Shown: positions 10,176-57,700 of the stretch, piece by piece
Position numbering within the stretch: position 1 is the first letter of the stretch
Layout of the letters: each line of letters begins with the position of its first letter
Assembly: GCF_040954835.1 (NCBI RefSeq)
Contig: NC_090714.1
Span: forward strand, 3,522,501-3,586,500
Length of the DNA stretch: 64,000 nucleotides
Direction of reading: 5' to 3'
Origin: Lepisosteus oculatus
Lineage: Eukaryota > Chordata > Actinopteri > Semionotiformes > Lepisosteidae
Notes under the pieces: model-generated
The model's input: the letters and a program-made list of their open reading frames with translations, nothing else
Told to the model about the DNA's origin: nothing
Databases searched by the model: none
Translations under genes and position numbers: made by a program

Positions 10176-12235
10176 CCAAGCTGCTTTTGTGCCTTCTTTT
10201 TCTGGTGATCACATAACCAGGTAGGTTGACTTTGACCGCCAGCTTCCCGTCCGGAAAGTCCGAGCGCCGTATTACTGGTGCGGAGGTACTGGAAGGATAT
10301 CTGCAATTTCGTTTCGCTTTTTGGGGGCGGGGGTTGAGTTTGCATTTAATACCACTATTTTCTGCGAGTTTATGCGAACAGGAAAATTAGGTTTGTCTCC
10401 AATATCACACCGTAATCACAAGAGTTGCGGGTTTAGCCTTAAAAATCGAGTATTATCAAAGAACTATATGTTCTGAGAAAAACGCTTTAACTAGCACGTC
10501 TTTAAAAAAAAAACTGTCATCGTCCCGTTATCCATGTCTTTGTAATGAACTTTTTAATTGAACATTTACGATTTGTTTTCGGTTCAACTCAAACTACTTT
10601 ATTCAGATCATGAATAGTAAAAGGTTAGAAATAAGCGTCACCCTCGCGCCATCTACGGCGTTTACTCCTGTGTTTGGAGTTCAGATCGAGCAGTAAGAAT
10701 TATACTGTTAGTGTTTGACAGTCAGTCTCACCTGTGATTACGGTACTGTACGTCACTCATTGACTGTGCTTCCGCAACACTTTTCACTGTATTACCTGTG
10801 TGCACAGTGTATAACACTATATAGAGTTTTTAATGACTTTTTTAAATAATCGAAATTAATTTGCATCTCTGTCTTACAGATGACAATTATGAGTTCATAT
10901 AAAGCCCCTAAATACCTGCCGCACACTGTTTCAACTAGTTCATTGCCTTCACTGAAATTCATAGACTCCATTTTCACCACCTGCACTCTTTGCACTTGAC
11001 TACAGCAACTTTCATATCTTATAGTATATAAAATAACATTTTCTCTAATATTAATAATAAGGAGTGATGTGATGTTCCATTATTTGCAAAACCTGTTTTT
11101 TCCGTCCTCATCGCTATTCTGTTTTCTAGGCATACAGCATTTCACATTCTATTTACATGCGTCGCTTTTGATTTTTACATCTTGAATCTGAAGGATTAAA
11201 CTTCTGTGTTGAACTTTGTCAAATGCCAATGGAAATATATCATATTGTGACACCTACTGGTATAAAGGAACTAAAGAGATACTCCGCCCAGCCACTAGTT
11301 AGCTAGAGTATAAAACATTTATTTCAATTTAATCGTTCATGCAGTTTTTTATAAGTTGTCTTTAGATTAATTTCGGACATATTTTTAAATTTAAAAATCA
11401 ACATTTTAACCTCTCAGGCTTCACGTCTGACGCATGACATACAGGATCCCTCAATCTACTGTAAACCTTTTTAACTATCATTCGAAAAGATGAACAAGTC
11501 GTGTCCAGTCGCACAAAATGCTAGAAAAGCGCTTTACAAAGGCGTTTCAGTAGCTTTATTGCTTGAAATGAGAGTAAACAGGCGAACCGCCTCGTCTCGG
11601 AACAGTGAATTGGCTTTAGTCTGAATAAGAGATGTACATGGCCGGTATTTTGCGTGGCCGGCCTGGTGGCTCCGCGGGCTGAACCATCGGACACTTCTAA
11701 AGTTCAGAGAGCAGATCGACTCCCGGAGAGTCTTGAGTTGAAGTCGAGCCCCGAGCCTCCCCGTCAGTCTGAGACCTAATCCCCGGTCTGAGACCTGATC
11801 CCCGGGTGAAGCTCTCATGCTGTCTGGGTGAGTTTGTAGAAGGGGCTGTTCTCTACCACGCCGGCCGTTTTGGGGGGCTCCATTTTCGGGGCCTTCCAAA
11901 ACAGGGAAAATGGGGGGTTTAAGTCCTTTATAAATGCATAGATCGGAATTCAATTCTAAAAAGCAGCCCCTTATACCACTGAGACACCTGCAGGACAGGT
12001 GTGGCACTAGCAGTGAAAACGAGGTGCAGTCCTAACTAGGAGCGACAGGGGTCTCTCTCCAGCACATTTCTCTTGATTCGACCAGGTGGCCGCAAGCTAA
12101 ACGGGTCGGGCAACAGTTTTGTAGGAGAATGTCACTGTATAAGGTTGTCTGAAAATCTTCAGCCGTTACATACTTTATGTATGATTTGGTGAGTTCAAGT
12201 TTCTATTTATCTTCAGTAGCGTGAGTGTTGAGCCC
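10176..12235. other. intergenic, no gene recognised
   Basis: AT-rich DNA with several TA-rich stretches and no supported coding exon. A more GC-rich patch at 11,640-11,900 has only weak open frames. Confidence 0.5.
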
Positions 12236-12352
12236 TTGTAACCGAGCGCACAGCTGTCATTCAGGAGCCGAGCCCGCCCCCAGAGTGACCTTCCTCAGCG
12301 GACACGCCCCGTCCACCTGTTCCACAGGTGCGCCCGGCAAGATGGCAGCGGG
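12236..12352 (+). promoter_or_regulatory. CpG-rich promoter and first exon of unrecognised gene A
   Basis: GC-box-like AGCCCGCCCCCAG and ACACGCCCC precede CAAGATGGCAGCGGG, which is followed by a strong donor GTGAGT at 12,353. The GC-rich island in AT-rich surroundings looks like a promoter with a short first exon. The transcription start is not determined. Confidence 0.5.
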
Positions 12353-13438
12353 GTGAGTTTCTGCGGCGTGAGGTGCGTTTGCGTTTAATGTCGCATTTTC
12401 TTATTTTAAATACAAAAACTCAAATTTCACTTTGAGGAAAGCTAGACAAATTGTATTGTTGTTGCAACTTTTGTTAATTCAATTTGTTTTTGTTTAATTT
12501 GTGTTTTAGGACGCCGAAATGAGTCTTCTGTTTGAGCGTGCTCTCGAAGTTTTAAAAGTCTGCATTCAGCGTTTTTATAGTACCTTTCATGTAAGTATGT
12601 TTTGTAAGATAAGGTCTGTTTCTTCTAACGAAAAAAGGCTGTATTTTATCTGCAAACATTTACTTCCTAAAGTCAGTAGCTGTGTAATCTCTGCTTTTCG
12701 GATTCGGGCTTACCGCTCAGAAGTTATAAAATGTTGTAAAGATGAAATTGACTAATTCGTAGGCTTTTTTTATTTCTCTAGGTCATTAAAAAGGATTTCA
12801 AGAACGGACCTCTTATGAAAGTGTTTTTTCCAAGGTAAGTTCTATTCCTACCTTCCGCTAACACTATTTGTGTAACTCGATAAAACAACACGTATTTCCC
12901 AGCGTTTTAACAAAAGAACAGTTTTATACCAACTTGATCACTTCTTTTCGTTTCATGGTGCTTTTGTGGAGTAAACTCTAAGGCGCTGGTTCTTTTTTAT
13001 GCTACTTTTATTCATCTTTAGAATTCATTGGGTAAACATGGATATACCAACACATTTTATCGATGATTTTAAAGCAGAGTTAATTCGAATTATATACACG
13101 CTGTAGGTGTGAGGCTGAATGTATTTTCTAAATATTGGAGTAGTAGGACTGAGATGCATTGGTGATTTTCGATGGTTTATTGGTTGAGTGTTTTTTTTTT
13201 ATTTCGGCATTTTATTTAAACAGTTAATAGACTTCAGAACTTCAAGTGAATCGATTCTGCAAGTCCGATATCTTGTTAACTTGCTCCTTTTTCTTTTGCC
13301 TTCAGTTCTGCGGCTCCTGGTTCTCTGGGCTCTGACGATCTCCTTTCCAATCCACTCCAGCAACTCGACGAGCGTTGGCAGGTTCTTCTCTACAATGTGT
13401 GCTTTTTCTTGAATTTTAGTTTGATATCTGTGGCTTGA
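12342..13438 (+). CDS. unrecognised small spliced gene A, 85-residue ORF with upstream mini-ORF
   Basis: Four exons are supported by good splice sites: a first exon ending at 12,352, then 12,510-12,590, 12,782-12,834, and a last exon from 13,306. After splicing, an ATG in exon 1 opens a 7-codon frame (MAAGTPK) whose TGA overlaps the next ATG as ATGA at 12,519-12,522. That second frame runs through the three later exons with phases intact, giving 85 residues to TGA at 13,436-13,438. It starts MSLLFERALEVLKVC and ends in a hydrophobic stretch. I recognise no domain. It could equally be a non-coding transcript; the splice evidence is stronger than the coding evidence. Confidence 0.4.
12510..12590 (+). 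CDS. gene A exon 2
   Basis: 81 bp between acceptor tgttttag and donor GTAAGTATG. The ATG of the 85-residue frame is at 12,519, and the exon leaves in phase 0. Confidence 0.4.
12782..12834 (+). CDS. gene A exon 3
   Basis: 53 bp between acceptor tttctctag and donor GTAAGT. It encodes VIKKDFKNGPLMKVFFP and leaves in phase 2. Confidence 0.4.
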
Positions 13439-14003
13439 TCTGTAGTGTACCCTTTGTATACCGATTTATGTTATTGTTAACCTGCATGTTTCCTGTTGAC
13501 TGCTGCTATTGTATGTGCTGCGGCTCCTGGTTCTCTGCGATCCGACGATCTCCAGCAATTTATTCTTGACAGTGTGCTTTTTGTTACATTTGATTTTTGT
13601 TACCAGTTGCTTGATCTGTAATGTCCCGATTCAGTGCTGTATTTTATTCTTGACCTGCATGTTTTCTGTTGACTGCTGCTATTGTATGTGTTGCGCTCCG
13701 ACGATCTCCAGCAATTTATTCTTGACAGTGTGCTTTTTGTTACATTTGATTTTTGTTACCAGTTGCTTGATCTGTAATGTCCCGATTCAGTGCTGTATTT
13801 TATTCTTGACCTGCATGTTTTCTGTTGACTGCTGCTATTGTATGTGTTGCGCTCCGACGATCTCCAGCAATTTATTCTTGACAGTGTGCTTTTTGTTACA
13901 TTTGATTTTTGTTACCAGTTGCTTGATCTGTAATGTCCCGATTCAGTGCTGTATTTTATTCTTGACTACTGCTATTGTATTTGCTGTGAATTCTGCAATA
14001 AAA
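13306..14003 (+). other. gene A last exon with long repetitive 3' UTR
   Basis: Acceptor ttttgccttcag precedes 13,306. The coding part ends at 13,438. The remainder is mostly tandem repeats and finishes with AATAAA near 13,998, a natural polyadenylation signal for this strand. Confidence 0.45.
13331..13995 (+). repeat. 156-bp tandem repeat array in gene A last exon
   Basis: The phrase TC(C/T)GACGATCTCC recurs at 13,331, 13,541, 13,697 and 13,853. The first interval is 210 bp (a diverged unit); the next two are exactly 156 bp and almost identical, and the last unit is cut short. Because 156 is divisible by three, the array carries a long open frame that looks like a repetitive protein but is most likely an artefact of the repeat. 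Confidence 0.85.
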
Positions 14004-14043
14004 ACTCTCATTTCATTGTCTGCATTGTCCTGTATTTTCGAAG

Positions 14044-14100
14044 GTGCGAAGGGTTGTCTTGCGCGTGCGCCACGCACCGCAAGGCGACAACCCATCGCAC
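14044..14100. repeat. 57-nt near-perfect hairpin between convergent genes
   Basis: Left arm GTGCGAAGGGTTGTCTTGCG pairs with the right arm ending in CAACCCATCGCAC; one A/A mismatch and a 3-nt bulge interrupt it, and the loop itself can pair (GCGTG/CACGC). It lies just after gene A's polyadenylation signal. Confidence 0.7.
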
Positions 14101-14537
14101 TGACCTGGAAAAGTGCGAGGACGCCCGCCTTTTTAGATAGTCTGGGGGGGAATAGGGTCCCTAGGAGGGAGCGTGGGTCTAGCCCTGGGGGGAGGAGAAG
14201 GGAGGCTAGCTCTAGCCAAGCCCCCTCACTCCCAGCAGGAGGGGAAGGCAGGCTGGAGATGGCCTCGGCCCGAGAGAGAGGAGGCACCCAGGGCGGACTC
14301 AGCCCATCAGTCACAGCTTGCAACTGACAGCTTTCTAAGTCCACACCCCAGGAGACCTGCCTCTCTGCAGGGACCAAAGCCACCACCAACCTGCCATCCT
14401 CTCCTGCCGGGAGCGAGTGGGCCTGGCTAGAGCTGCGGTCAATCAGCCAGCCCCCGCCTACCCCTCTCCAATGAGGGGGGGTGGGCGAGGCTCGGCTTGA
14501 TTGCTACCAGACCCCGAGAGAAACCCCAGATACTAAG

Positions 14538-14660
14538 TTTTTTGGCGGGAAAATCTGGACACGCTTAAAAAGGGGGTAGCCTTTGACCTTTTCAAGTCAA
14601 AAAGCGATAGGGCGTCCCCTTGCGGCCACAAACTGTTAGCAAAATCTCTCCGCCAAAAAA
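14538..14660. repeat. nested inverted repeat with E2F-like arms
   Basis: Outer arms TTTTTTGGCGG (14,538-14,548) and CCGCCAAAAAA (14,650-14,660); inner arms TTTGAC (14,582-14,587) and GTCAAA (14,596-14,601), flanked by CGCTT/AAGCG. The left arm reads TTTGGCGGGAAA, which matches an E2F consensus. It may be a decayed foldback element rather than a working regulator. Confidence 0.55.
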
Positions 14661-14746
14661 CTCACCAACACCGGGGTTTTTCAGGGCCAAGGGGTACAAA
14701 ACTCTGCACAAGAAATCAAAGAACAAAATCAAGGTTCAATCAACAA

Positions 14747-14752
14747 TTTATT
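14747..14752 (-). terminator. polyadenylation signal of small gene B
   Basis: AATAAA on the minus strand, about 190 bp past the stop codon of gene B and in a sensible position for it. Confidence 0.55.
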
Positions 14753-14943
14753 GAGCGAAAATGGCATACAAAACAAAGCATTACAATACGTCGGATGCAC
14801 AGGCTTCAAAGTGGAAATAAACATGCATTTCAATTACAAAGTGTCAAAGCACGGCAACATTAACGCTAAATACTGTTACAAGTCAACAGAGTAAGAAACA
14901 TTTGCATGCAACTACAAGAAAAAATACAGAAACACACAGCACG

Positions 14944-15009
14944 TTACTGTTTCTCCGAGTTATCAGTCGAGGCAGCGACTGGAATGAAGACTGGAACTTC
15001 GTGCGCTTC
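14944..15009 (-). CDS. gene B last coding exon
   Basis: Acceptor tttttttgcag; 66 bp including the TAA stop at 14,944-14,946. It enters in phase 0 and encodes 21 residues beginning EAHEVPVFIPVAAS. Confidence 0.42.
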   Translation of the reverse strand, partial: EAHEVPVFIPVAASTDNSEKQ

Positions 15010-15785
15010 CTGCAAAAAAACAAAAATCAGTATTAACTTTTTAATATAAACAGCAGGCCTACAATGTTGTCGGGTGAAAACCATTTCTGCCCGGGAGAAA
15101 TCTAGTATCTCCTAGTCTGAGTCTTCTTTTGACAACAATTCTCGGGAGATACTTCACAATGATACGTGTAAACGAATAAAAAGGTTTATACTTACATCGG
15201 TAATTCCAGTAGCTGAGCCAAACATGTTCTGCCCGCAGACACCAAACTGAAAACACAAGAACACACGTATTTAGACGATTATTTAAAGATAATTGAAAGC
15301 AAGGTTTCTTAGTAGGAAACGGCGTTTTCACCAGGATAGATAGCGCCGAAAATATGTTAATGCGATACGTGTAAAGAAATGAATAAAACGTTTATACTTA
15401 CTTGGATAATTGCAGCAGCTGAGCCAAGCATGTCCTTCCCAAAGACACAAAACTGAAAACACAAAAATGCAGAATTTTGAATTTAAAAACCATTTAAAGT
15501 AATAAGTATATGTTGCAAGCTATTTTTTACCACAAACACACAAAATACACTGGAAAGTAATGACAAAAACTTTACAAATCTAAGTAAGCTATTTCGGTTT
15601 GAAAACATGCACACCCTTGATTTTGTGAACAAAGACTTAAAAATTAAAAATGCTATTCAGCTCCCAACGTAAATACTTGTTTTAACCCTTTCTCCTGGGA
15701 AGTTTACACTACATTCAAATAAAATAAAAATAAAAATAATCATAAAAGACGCGGAACAAACGCACTCAGCTCCGCTCTCTCCAGC
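14944..15785 (-). CDS. unrecognised small spliced gene B with a duplicated 51-bp exon
   Basis: Three in-phase exons are clear on the minus strand: 15,402-15,452, 15,196-15,246 and 14,944-15,009. The first two are homologous, each 51 bp in phase 0, encoding FCVFGKDMLGSAAAIIQ and FGVCGQNMFGSATGITD. The last encodes EAHEVPVFIPVAASTDNSEKQ-stop in pieces typical of a short acidic tail. A start is less certain: a hydrophobic MIIFIFILFECS frame near 15,750 could end at a GTAAAC donor in phase 0, giving 67 residues with a leader-like N-terminus. GC boxes (GGGGCGTGGC, GGGCGTGGC) lie just upstream at 15,808-15,850. I recognise no family. Convergent with gene A. Confidence 0.4.
15196..15246 (-). CDS. 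gene B duplicated exon, downstream copy
   Basis: 51 bp, acceptor tgttttcag, donor GTAAGTAT. It encodes FGVCGQNMFGSATGITD and matches the exon at 15,402-15,452 in length, splice sites and flanking intron sequence. Confidence 0.5.
15402..15452 (-). CDS. gene B duplicated exon, upstream copy
   Basis: 51 bp, acceptor tgttttcag, donor GTAAGTAT. It encodes FCVFGKDMLGSAAAIIQ. About 38 bp of following intron is shared with the other copy, so the duplication unit was larger than the exon. Confidence 0.5.
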
Positions 15786-15890
15786 AGAACCTGGCGCACA
15801 GGTGCGCGGGGCGTGGCCTGCGAGAGATGTCATGCGGGTGGGCGTGGCTACAGACTGACGCAGGTTGCTTTTTTTCTCGGCTCCACGTGA
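15786..15890 (-). promoter_or_regulatory. probable gene B promoter
   Basis: A GC-rich patch in AT-rich DNA with two CCACGCCC/GGGCGTGG boxes (KLF/SP-type) upstream of the hydrophobic start frame on the minus strand. Confidence 0.35.
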
Positions 15891-15899
15891 AAACCTGTG

Positions 15900-16640
15900 G
15901 AAGAAATCGATCATGTTTACAGAAACCCTCTGAGTTACAAGCTTCAAAATGTTTTTTTTTTTCCCCATGGGCATTGAGTAATCACAGTACTTTTAATCCT
16001 TACTAGTATTTGAGAGCCACAAGATTGTGAATGAAAGAATTTAGAAATATGTGTTTTTTAAACATCTTTCCAGGACAATTACTGTTCTATAGCCTGATTT
16101 ATCTTAACGCTGGACCAATAAGTAACATTTTCCATCTGTAAACGTTTATCATACTTAATTTACTACCTTTTTACTCATTACTCATGCAGCTGATGTGTTC
16201 ATTTAAGAAGTCACAGAACATGAGAAAGTTCAAATGAGAGGGCAGTATTCAATTGATGTACACCTTTTGGTTACTGATATCAGTTAATCTTACAAAGCCA
16301 TTGCTCAAAAGAAGACAGGCTGTAGGTTTCAACAAAATGTCTAGATCACTTGTGCTATTCTCCTGCAACTCTTTGTGTAAAGAACTTTTAACTACACTTC
16401 CCTGTGACATCCTTTCACATTTCCCTTGGTTCCTGTCAAAGTAGTTCACACAGTATTACTGCAACTTAATTTTATAACTGGTTAACTGCAGTAATTCCTT
16501 AACTTGGCATAATTTTCAACACTAGTGCACTGAACTGTACATTTTACATTCAAATAAATTCAAATTTCTCAACCTCAGTGCAACCCCAATTTTAAACTTT
16601 AATCCTTAGCCTCAGCACTAAAAATGGATAAAAGATCAGG
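15900..16640. other. intergenic, no gene recognised
   Basis: AT-rich sequence without supported exons or clear repeats. Confidence 0.5.
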
Positions 16641-54700: not shown

Positions 54701-57700
54701 CTGCGATGAAACCGATTAGGGGTTCAGCTCTTAAACCGAGAAAGCTGGGCTGGAACAAAAACCAGCCGGTGTGTGAGCCTTCGGGAGCAGGACTGGAAAG
54801 AGCTGCTATCGATAAAGCTTTTGTGCTCAGCTTTTAAAATTAAGACATAGAAAATAAACATAGCCTCACATGTTCATTGCTTTTGGACATTAGCACTGAA
54901 CTAACCTAGTTTTCCAAACGTTTTCGAGTATCACAAATTAAATGGCGGCACACTGTCTACTTGCAGCCTGCATTGGAGACCTCTGCCCCGGGCAGATGTA
55001 GCAGCTACAGTCTGTAGAGTTTTCTTCGCCTGGCTCAGGACTTTCTTAATCTTCCAGTGCCCGTTATGGAATATTAAAACAATGCTCTGATGTTCCACTT
55101 TTCAAGGCCAACCAAAAAGAAAAAGAAAGAGTCTTTGAAAACGTGGAACTCCGCAATCAATATCGTTGAAAAGGCAAGTAGCGGGACTCCAACAATTCTG
55201 CCCGCCACTAAAGCCAAGCAACAGAGTTATTTTCAGCGAAAGGCTAAAGTCTGTCTCTCTAACTCACTCACTGTTTGGGGGTTTGGGGCGGGGGGTCACA
55301 GTGTTCTCTTTTGGGGTTATCCTTTAAACCGTGCTGGAAAAGAGCCGAAAAAAAAACAGGAAACGTTTTGGCTTCACTGATTCCTCAGTTATTGCCAAGT
55401 TACCAGTTCAGGGGTGTAGGTAATAATTATCCGCCAGGGCACTCGCAGTGTCTTTTCAAAGCGTTATTGCTAGAGCGGTAATTGGTCACGAGCGAGGACG
55501 ACACAGCGCCACTGTAGCATGAAACACATTAAGGGTGATGAACCCTTTAACTGCATGAGAAAAGCTCTGACAATCAGCCATGGACATAGAGCTGTACTAC
55601 AAGGATGCAGTGGTACTGTAGCTCGCGTAGTGAGGCCCCTGCCCCTTGTGGGTTCAAATTCAGATTGTGATGCGGCAACACAAGTCAAGGGGCGAGATAC
55701 CAAATACAAATTAACTGAATCCCCCATACACTTCAGTTGCCAGAGGTATTTATTTTCTTTCTCATTTTAATAATTGTACACCCAACAGAAATGAAAAGGT
55801 ATAAAAAAAAAAAACATCATTCTATTTATCATACAGGTGCCAATTCCACTTTACCTTACTTATTCAAACAGGCGTTTGCTTTGCTGGCTGCGGTAAATTG
55901 GGGATAGTGGGCGTGCTTCAGTTTCTTTAAAGAAAATCGCCAGTTTAAAAATAACACTATTGATTTCCGAGGGGGCGAAAGCAGAGGAAGAGCTCTGTGC
56001 GGTAAGGTTAGGCCTTGGTCAAGTCAGAGGAGCAATTATATACATCCAATTGATGAGTACCAAATGTTTTCTCGTCCAGGAATTGTGTTCTGTTAAAGTA
56101 TGTTAAATAAGAAAGGTACTGGGAGCAGTCTAGAGAGGAGATGCATAGCTTAAAGTTTTCTAAAGTGATTAAAATCCTTGAAAAGCTTTTCTGAAAAACC
56201 ACATAAGCGCTTCTCCAGGCTCTGCATTTTTTACGCATTTTACCGTGTATAGGGCTTGAAAGAATCGAGCTTTTATGTTTTTCCTTTCCTGAATTTTGAA
56301 CAATAAATGTTTGTACTGCAATTGAAATTGTGTAATTGTGACAAATAAAAGAATATTGTACTTCCTTTTTAAATGACTATATACGCAGCTAAGTGCTTGA
56401 AAAGAAGGCAAACCAAAAAGGGGGATTATACACTTTATGAAGCATTAAGCTGCTTTACATCCACTTACACTAATTTTTGATTTCTTGTAAATACAAACCA
56501 CAGTTGCATAGGGCTATCTAAATTATGGAACTGGAGATATCTAAAGTAAACATTCTCTATATCCATCGTGTGAAGTGATCAACCTGCCAGTATATGATAC
56601 ACAGGAGAGCATAGTAAATCACGACACAGAGGGCAGCAGGGAAGAGAGCAGACTGAGTGGGTATAAATATAAGACTGAGACTGAGACCGGGGGTTTTCGC
56701 GAGAAAAGAATCTGAAAATAAGAGGAGTCTGTGCTGTCGCTGCATCGGTAAAACCAAGAAGGTGTTCATTAACGTGTAATAAGATCTGAACTGATTTCCT
56801 GCGGTCTGGAAGCCCAATGCCAATGTGAAATTGAGCTCGTATGTGACCCCACAGACATTATTTGAAGGTTACTACAGCCTTCTAAAGAGTCACTTTCAGA
56901 GTTGTTTTTTTCCCATTCTTTTCGTAATCCGGGGAATGATTAACAAACGTCTACAGATCGGGCTAGGAGTGCTTCCCAGAGATGGGAACAGAATGAATCA
57001 TGTTTACGGATAGCGGGAGCAACGTCTTGGCAGTCCAGAATTAAATCCAGGGAACAGTGCAAGTCAGTCAGACTGCTGCACCTCAGTAGTGATCCTGCCT
57101 AGCTGCACATCTTGGCATTACTCTTTACAAATGGATCAAAACTGCATGTTAAGCAGCCATATCACCCTGTAACGCACAACTGGCAGCAGCAGGTGTGAGC
57201 CTACCCAGTATCTGGATGGGAGATCTCCTGGGAAAGCTAAGGTTGCTGCTGGAAGAGGTGTTAGTGGGGCCAGTAGGGGGTGCTCACCCTGTGGTCCATG
57301 TGGGTCCTAATGCCCCAGGATAGTGACGGGGACACTATACTGTAAAAAGGCGCCGTCCGTCAGATGAGACGTAAAACCGAGGTCCTGACTCTCCGTGGTC
57401 ATTAAAAACCCCAGGGCGTTTCTCGAAAAGAGTAGGGGTGTAACCCCGATGCCCTGGCCAAATTTCCCATTGGCCCTTACCAATCATGGCCTCCTCATAA
57501 TCCCTATCTATCAATTGGCTTCATCATTCTGTTCTCCTCCCCACTGATAGCTGATGTGTGGTGAGCGTTCTGGCGCACTATGGCTGCCGTCGCATCATCC
57601 AGGTGGGGTTGTACATTGGTGGTGGTGGAGGGGAGCCCCATTACCTGTAAAGTGCTTTATAAGTGTAAGCAATTATTATTATTATTATTATTATTATTGT

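Follow-up and report, generated by a model that had tools for sequence, protein, structure and literature searches.

Tandem duplicated exons, the substrate of homologous exon substitution, are adjacent and homologous, carry their own splice sites and have a symmetric length that permits in-frame inclusion or skipping (PMC9741552). Most of those known in human are described there as ancient and highly expressed, with important residues kept. Tandem exon duplication as a mechanism, and the in-frame exon repeat as its form, are already well known. Long non-coding RNAs with conserved promoters, as presented in PMC4739325, retain the promoter and align poorly along the transcript body; of the candidate human-mouse pairs there, about 61% are given as low in identity and without conserved splice sites. 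PMC7005711 deals with small orphan genes whose membrane segments are encoded by T-rich sequence. Here we describe a locus in a 64,000-nucleotide stretch of Lepisosteus oculatus DNA (the window) that has something of each: a duplicated symmetric exon with predicted splice sites on either side of each copy, a candidate promoter resembling that of a neighbor whose transcript body aligns poorly with it, and a short open reading frame (ORF) with a hydrophobic tail in T-rich 3′ sequence.

The original prediction placed two exons of equal length, with the same donor and acceptor, on the minus strand, and exon-like segments answering to this, with near-equal acceptors, were found within a longer tandem duplication. 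Two reading frames recur below, the one proposed originally (the proposed frame) and the one shifted by one base (the +1 frame).

15402..15452, minus strand: exon A, 51 nt; proposed frame FCVFGKDMLGSAAAIIQ, +1 frame FVSLGRTCLAQLLQLSN
15196..15246, minus strand: exon B, 51 nt; proposed frame FGVCGQNMFGSATGITD, +1 frame LVSAGRTCLAQLLELPM
15364..15502, minus strand: upstream copy of the tandem duplication (BLAST within the window)
15161..15302, minus strand: downstream copy of the tandem duplication (BLAST within the window)

The two exons are identical at 40 of 51 positions (11 differences) and have the donor GTAAGTATAAAC in common, and their acceptor windows (−15 to −1), both of which terminate in tgttttcag, differ at a single position. 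When the 11–17 kb segment was compared with the window by BLAST, 15364–15502 matched 15161–15302 at 76.6% (E = 1.8e-23), and local alignment of the repeat scored 146, whereas no score above 69 arose from 500 dinucleotide shuffles. The repeat is therefore far beyond chance, and the tandem exon duplication is real. Its unit of about 140 bp, repeated at a spacing of 206 bp, consists of the exon, about 50 bp of upstream intron and 38 bp of downstream intron; the roughly 38 bp of intron reported originally covers the downstream side and so understates the extent. The copies are adjacent, homologous and in the same orientation, each has its own predicted acceptor and donor, judged by sequence and matrix rank, and each is symmetric in length, so that the frame is preserved. 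Since 51 is divisible by three, either copy can be included or skipped with no change of the downstream frame. Microexons usually stay within a limit of about 27–30 nt, and at 51 nt these exons are too long for the name first given to them.

Around the duplicated exon, the following features can be arranged into a gene model on the minus strand, in which exon 1 is predicted.

15740..15900, minus strand: CpG-rich promoter/first-exon region (G+C 0.60, CpG observed/expected 0.98)
15766..15833, minus strand: candidate coding part of exon 1, from the ATG at 15833–15831 to the proposed donor TGA/GTGCGT at 15765, in phase with the +1 frame
15247..15401, minus strand: intron A, 155 nt
15010..15195, minus strand: intron B, 186 nt, with a strong 3′ acceptor
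14735..15009, minus strand: terminal exon, with the proposed-frame stop at 14946–14944 and the +1-frame stop at 14885–14883; 3′ end assumed near 14735
14747..14752, minus strand: AATAAA polyadenylation signal, with T-rich sequence downstream

Splice sites were scored on a textbook frequency matrix over both strands of the 64 kb window (8916 AG and 7247 GT sites). Among all AG sites, the acceptor of the third exon at 15009 ranked 2nd and those of exons A (15452) and B (15246) 59th and 91st; among all GT sites, the donors of exons A (15401) and B (15195) ranked 30th and 92nd. Within 14900–15900 on the minus strand, no donors other than those of exons A and B scored above 3.5; five acceptors scored above 4, three of them belonging to the gene model and the remaining two lying at 15894 and 14911. 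The third acceptor was found as predicted, as was the AATAAA that follows it, at 14752–14747. The exon-1 donor at 15765 is weak, being absent from the sites that score above 3.5, and aligns with the donor GTGAGT of the plus-strand gene described below. Eleven acceptor-donor pairs, 20–200 bp apart, equal these site scores on the two strands of the window, so a single such exon is unremarkable; the duplicated pair is what is remarkable. Since promoter, splice sites and AATAAA follow in order within 1.1 kb, the arrangement fits a small spliced gene, and a compact minus-strand gene of four exons is probably real.

Neither intron has an unusual predicted fold: intron A folded no better than its shuffles (z = 0.02) and intron B was ordinary (z = −0.89). 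Pairing of TACACGTAT, located downstream of the exons, with ATACGTGT, located ahead of exon B, was considered as a docking-site mechanism and rejected because intron A has no perfect 9-nt Watson-Crick stem, whereas a perfect stem of 9 was present in 28 of 500 intron A shuffles. Just downstream of the polyadenylation signal, at 14536–14662 on the minus strand, perfect inverted arms of 13 nt (AGTTTTTTGGCGG) are separated by about 100 bp.

A second candidate small gene lies on the plus strand, tail to tail with the first.

12256..12369, plus strand: promoter/first exon, related to that of the minus-strand gene; donor GTGAGT at 12353
12510..12590, plus strand: exon 2, 81 nt
12782..12834, plus strand: exon 3, 53 nt; donor rank 1 of 7247, acceptor rank 8 of 8916
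13022..13106, plus strand: exon 4, 85 nt; ends the 69-codon ORF MSLLFERALEVL...IRIIYTL
13306..14020, plus strand: last exon, containing tandem duplications and an AATAAA at 13997; its end is assumed

The likeness of the two putative promoter/first-exon regions is new here. In a comparison of 2.1 by 2.5 kb, 15749–15859 (minus) matched 12256–12369 (plus) at 69% over 115 columns (E = 1e-5), and the same blocks were recovered in a search of the whole window (67.5% over 114, E = 1e-4). Past the first exon there was no clear similarity between the two genes, the next best of 20 exon comparisons giving P = 0.048 (last exon to last exon) and 0.05, both uncorrected. The products of the minus-strand gene showed no protein similarity to the plus-strand gene (shuffle P = 0.25–0.36 against the plus-strand ORF and 0.28–0.89 against the frame of that gene's last exon). 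The plus-strand ORF is open through exons 2–4; of 3000 shuffles, 2.8% had any frame open there. Its codon score, a measure that penalizes stops strongly, exceeded those of all 400 shuffles. Tested as the longest reading frame of its transcript, it had P = 0.046 when the last exon was shortened and 0.28 when it was complete. The exon 2 acceptor (rank 372 of 8916) and exon 4 donor (rank 230 of 7247) are weaker than the sites of exon 3. If the donor at 12353 is used, a short upstream ORF precedes the 69-codon ORF, and its stop overlaps the ATG. Inside the presumed last exon, a 156-bp tandem repeat (13536–13966) comprises 2.8 copies with 99% matches, and the start of the exon (13305–13343) is repeated at 13515–13553; tandem duplication of exon sequence is thus seen in both small genes. 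Between them, at 14208–14434, lies an inverted repeat with 64-nt arms that are 81% complementary, possibly the remnant of a mobile element.

Neither small gene had a recognizable relative in the collections searched. Pfam, searched with the products of both at E ≤ 10, gave no match for the two open frames of the minus-strand gene or for the 69-codon plus-strand ORF, and a suspected resemblance of the latter to S100 proteins is therefore not claimed. In the PDB, the open frames of the minus-strand gene gave single, non-significant matches (E = 0.39 and 1.2) and the plus-strand ORF none. Prokaryote genomes scanned with the +1 frame returned 343 pattern matches and viral contigs 9 for the plus-strand ORF and 10 for the proposed frame, with no relative among them. 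The original remark that no family with this sequence is known accordingly holds for both open frames in Pfam and the PDB, for the proposed frame in viral contigs and for the +1 frame in prokaryotes; ‘unrecognised’ means without a match in these collections, and nothing wider. At a relaxed threshold, Rfam gave six matches in 14400–16000, all below the gathering score (best E = 0.051), and none at E up to 5 in 11900–14100, so that a snoRNA host gene is not supported at either locus. The tRNA scan was empty.

The surroundings in the window have a vertebrate appearance and include, by Pfam, a cytochrome P450 gene and a C2H2 zinc-finger gene, which we take to be GLIS2, together with an ABCA3-like transporter, whose best match in the PDB is ABCA3 (E = 2.3e-54). 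An unrelated ORF near the P450 gene had a sub-threshold Pfam match to LURAP (E = 0.1). The sole Rfam match in the window at gathering thresholds, far from the small genes, was a 5S rRNA (41.8 bits, 57149–57254, plus strand) between exons of the ABCA3-like gene; our guess is that it is a 5S pseudogene or a 5S-derived SINE.

Two of the three frames are open through exons A and B and the 63 bases that follow, a condition found in 1.6% of 3000 shuffles (at least two frames open; at least one was open in 29%), and because of this any peptides read from the exons are an interpretation. Between the copies, the proposed frame has 1 synonymous change and 10 non-synonymous ones (dS = 0.09, dN = 0.31, dN/dS ~3), the +1 frame 5 and 5 (dS = 0.54, dN = 0.16, dN/dS ~0.3; Fisher p = 0.11) and the third frame 2 and 8. 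Relative to simulated neutral divergence, the BLOSUM similarity of the copies had P = 0.88 in the proposed frame, 0.025 in the +1 frame and 0.78 in the third (per-frame values, with three frames tried); for the +1 frame, identity had P = 0.076 and the synonymous count P = 0.15. As tests of coding these comparisons are weak, and none is decisive. When exon 1 was compared with the plus-strand gene, the +1 frame gave the largest contrast between pS and pN of the three (0.48 and 0.30, compared with 0.39/0.31 and 0.35/0.35 in the others).

If exon 1 ends at 15766, the +1 frame would join the exon-1 ATG at 15833 in an ORF of 98 codons, which no other ORF of the modelled mRNA exceeds in length (both transcript ends assumed; P = 0.022, 500 region-wise shuffles). 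The last 19 residues of its product have a mean hydropathy of 2.72. Codon scores did not tell the two open frames apart: over exons A and B and the 63 bases they were −2.8 for the proposed frame and −5.9 for the +1 frame (best-of-three P = 0.07), and −11.7 and −8.5 when the stretch was extended 27 bases past the proposed stop (P = 0.05); exons A and B alone had P = 0.17 and the last-exon piece alone 0.56. This test has little power on short pieces, a known P450 exon giving P = 0.27 and an intron piece 0.15, while two ABC exons gave 0.045 and 0/400. The exon-1 ATG is in poor context and corresponds to GTG in the plus-strand gene.

The related 17-residue peptides of the original prediction are thus present in the proposed frame, but the counts of synonymous and non-synonymous changes and the BLOSUM comparison indicate that the protein so read is probably in the wrong frame; there is support for a small unrecognised gene with a duplicated exon of symmetric length. 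The suggested change of length by exon skipping also works on paper, in that all three skipping variants of the modelled mRNA keep the +1 ORF.

We give a probability of about 0.4 to the reading that the gene with the duplicated exon codes for the +1-frame protein of ~98 residues. Such a gene would begin in the CpG-rich promoter near 15.8 kb and end past the AATAAA at 14752. Its internal 51-nt exon would have been tandemly duplicated along with the flanking intron (about 50 bp on the upstream side and 38 bp on the downstream), so that both copies inherited splice sites. The product would carry a basic stretch as well as two 17-residue repeats (FVSLGRTCLAQLLQLSN and LVSAGRTCLAQLLELPM), and would have a hydrophobic segment at its C-terminus that might serve as a membrane anchor; skipping of one or both exon copies would shorten the product to 81 or 64 residues. 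It counts against this protein that T-rich 3′ sequence tends to encode a hydrophobic tail anyway. A fuller version is doubtful and offered as speculation: a fast-evolving orphan gene for a small tail-anchored membrane protein, with the number of 17-residue repeats set by splicing, as one member of a fast-changing convergent pair that has a promoter in common and no recognizable common protein sequence.

How the copies diverged bears on whether the gene codes for protein at all. In the splice windows, 1 position in 27 has changed, whereas the exon has 11 changes in 51 and the remaining intron 12 in 58 (Fisher p = 0.045–0.054); the splice windows thus appear kept (p ~0.05), and exon sequence and non-splice intron have diverged at the same pace. 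Since the exon is no better kept than the intron, these values suit a non-coding RNA or a protein under little constraint. A spliced non-coding RNA gene, in which promoter and splice signals are kept, exon content drifts and the duplicated exon is a neutral copy, is nearly as probable as the +1-frame protein. It would account for the first exons being the one clear match among the 20 exon comparisons with the plus-strand gene and for the absence of significant Pfam or PDB matches in either open frame (the third frame of exons A and B likewise had no Pfam match), and the promoter conservation described even for poorly aligning lincRNA pairs (PMC4739325) is in keeping with it. It counts against this reading that the +1 frame appears constrained and holds the longest ORF, that two frames are open through exons A and B and the 63 bases, and that the exon lengths are multiples of three.

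The short phase-0 protein proposed originally, with its ATG in exon A and 48 codons from MLGSAAAIIQ to an acidic C-terminus (EAHEVPVFIPVAASTDNSEKQ), is unlikely. Its frame is open across three segments to a stop (14946–14944) at which G+C drops from 0.50 to 0.37, the codon score over that stretch is slightly the best, the exon A ATG has G at −3, and a transcription start downstream of 15833 would make this AUG the first. Yet the copies resemble each other in this frame no more than randomly diverged sequences, and 10 non-synonymous changes against 1 synonymous would require diversifying selection or an absence of constraint. It is similarly improbable that there is no working gene, and that a chance or decayed locus had its splice-like sites copied by duplication; the 11 equally strong exon-like pairs in the window and the weak exon-1 donor would agree with this, but the duplicated splice windows appear kept while the rest diverged by ~21% (p ~0.05), and a CpG-rich promoter, a strong third acceptor and AATAAA are aligned in order within 1.1 kb.

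If the +1-frame gene, or its non-coding counterpart, is transcribed, the locus would offer a clean tandem exon duplication in which splice signals are kept while exon content drifts, in a gene that has a promoter in common with a convergent neighbor of otherwise unrelated sequence. It would then be a convenient place to ask whether a product can be outlived by its own promoter and splice sites. Unlike the human tandem duplicated exons as characterized in PMC9741552, this predicted pair comes with no known important residue or splicing pattern. The orphan genes of PMC7005711 are from budding yeast, and any origin of the present gene from non-coding sequence is hypothetical. Finally, unlike the low-identity pairs described in PMC4739325, the exon copies here keep their splice windows, and a 98-codon frame of low dN/dS is present; non-coding status is putative.
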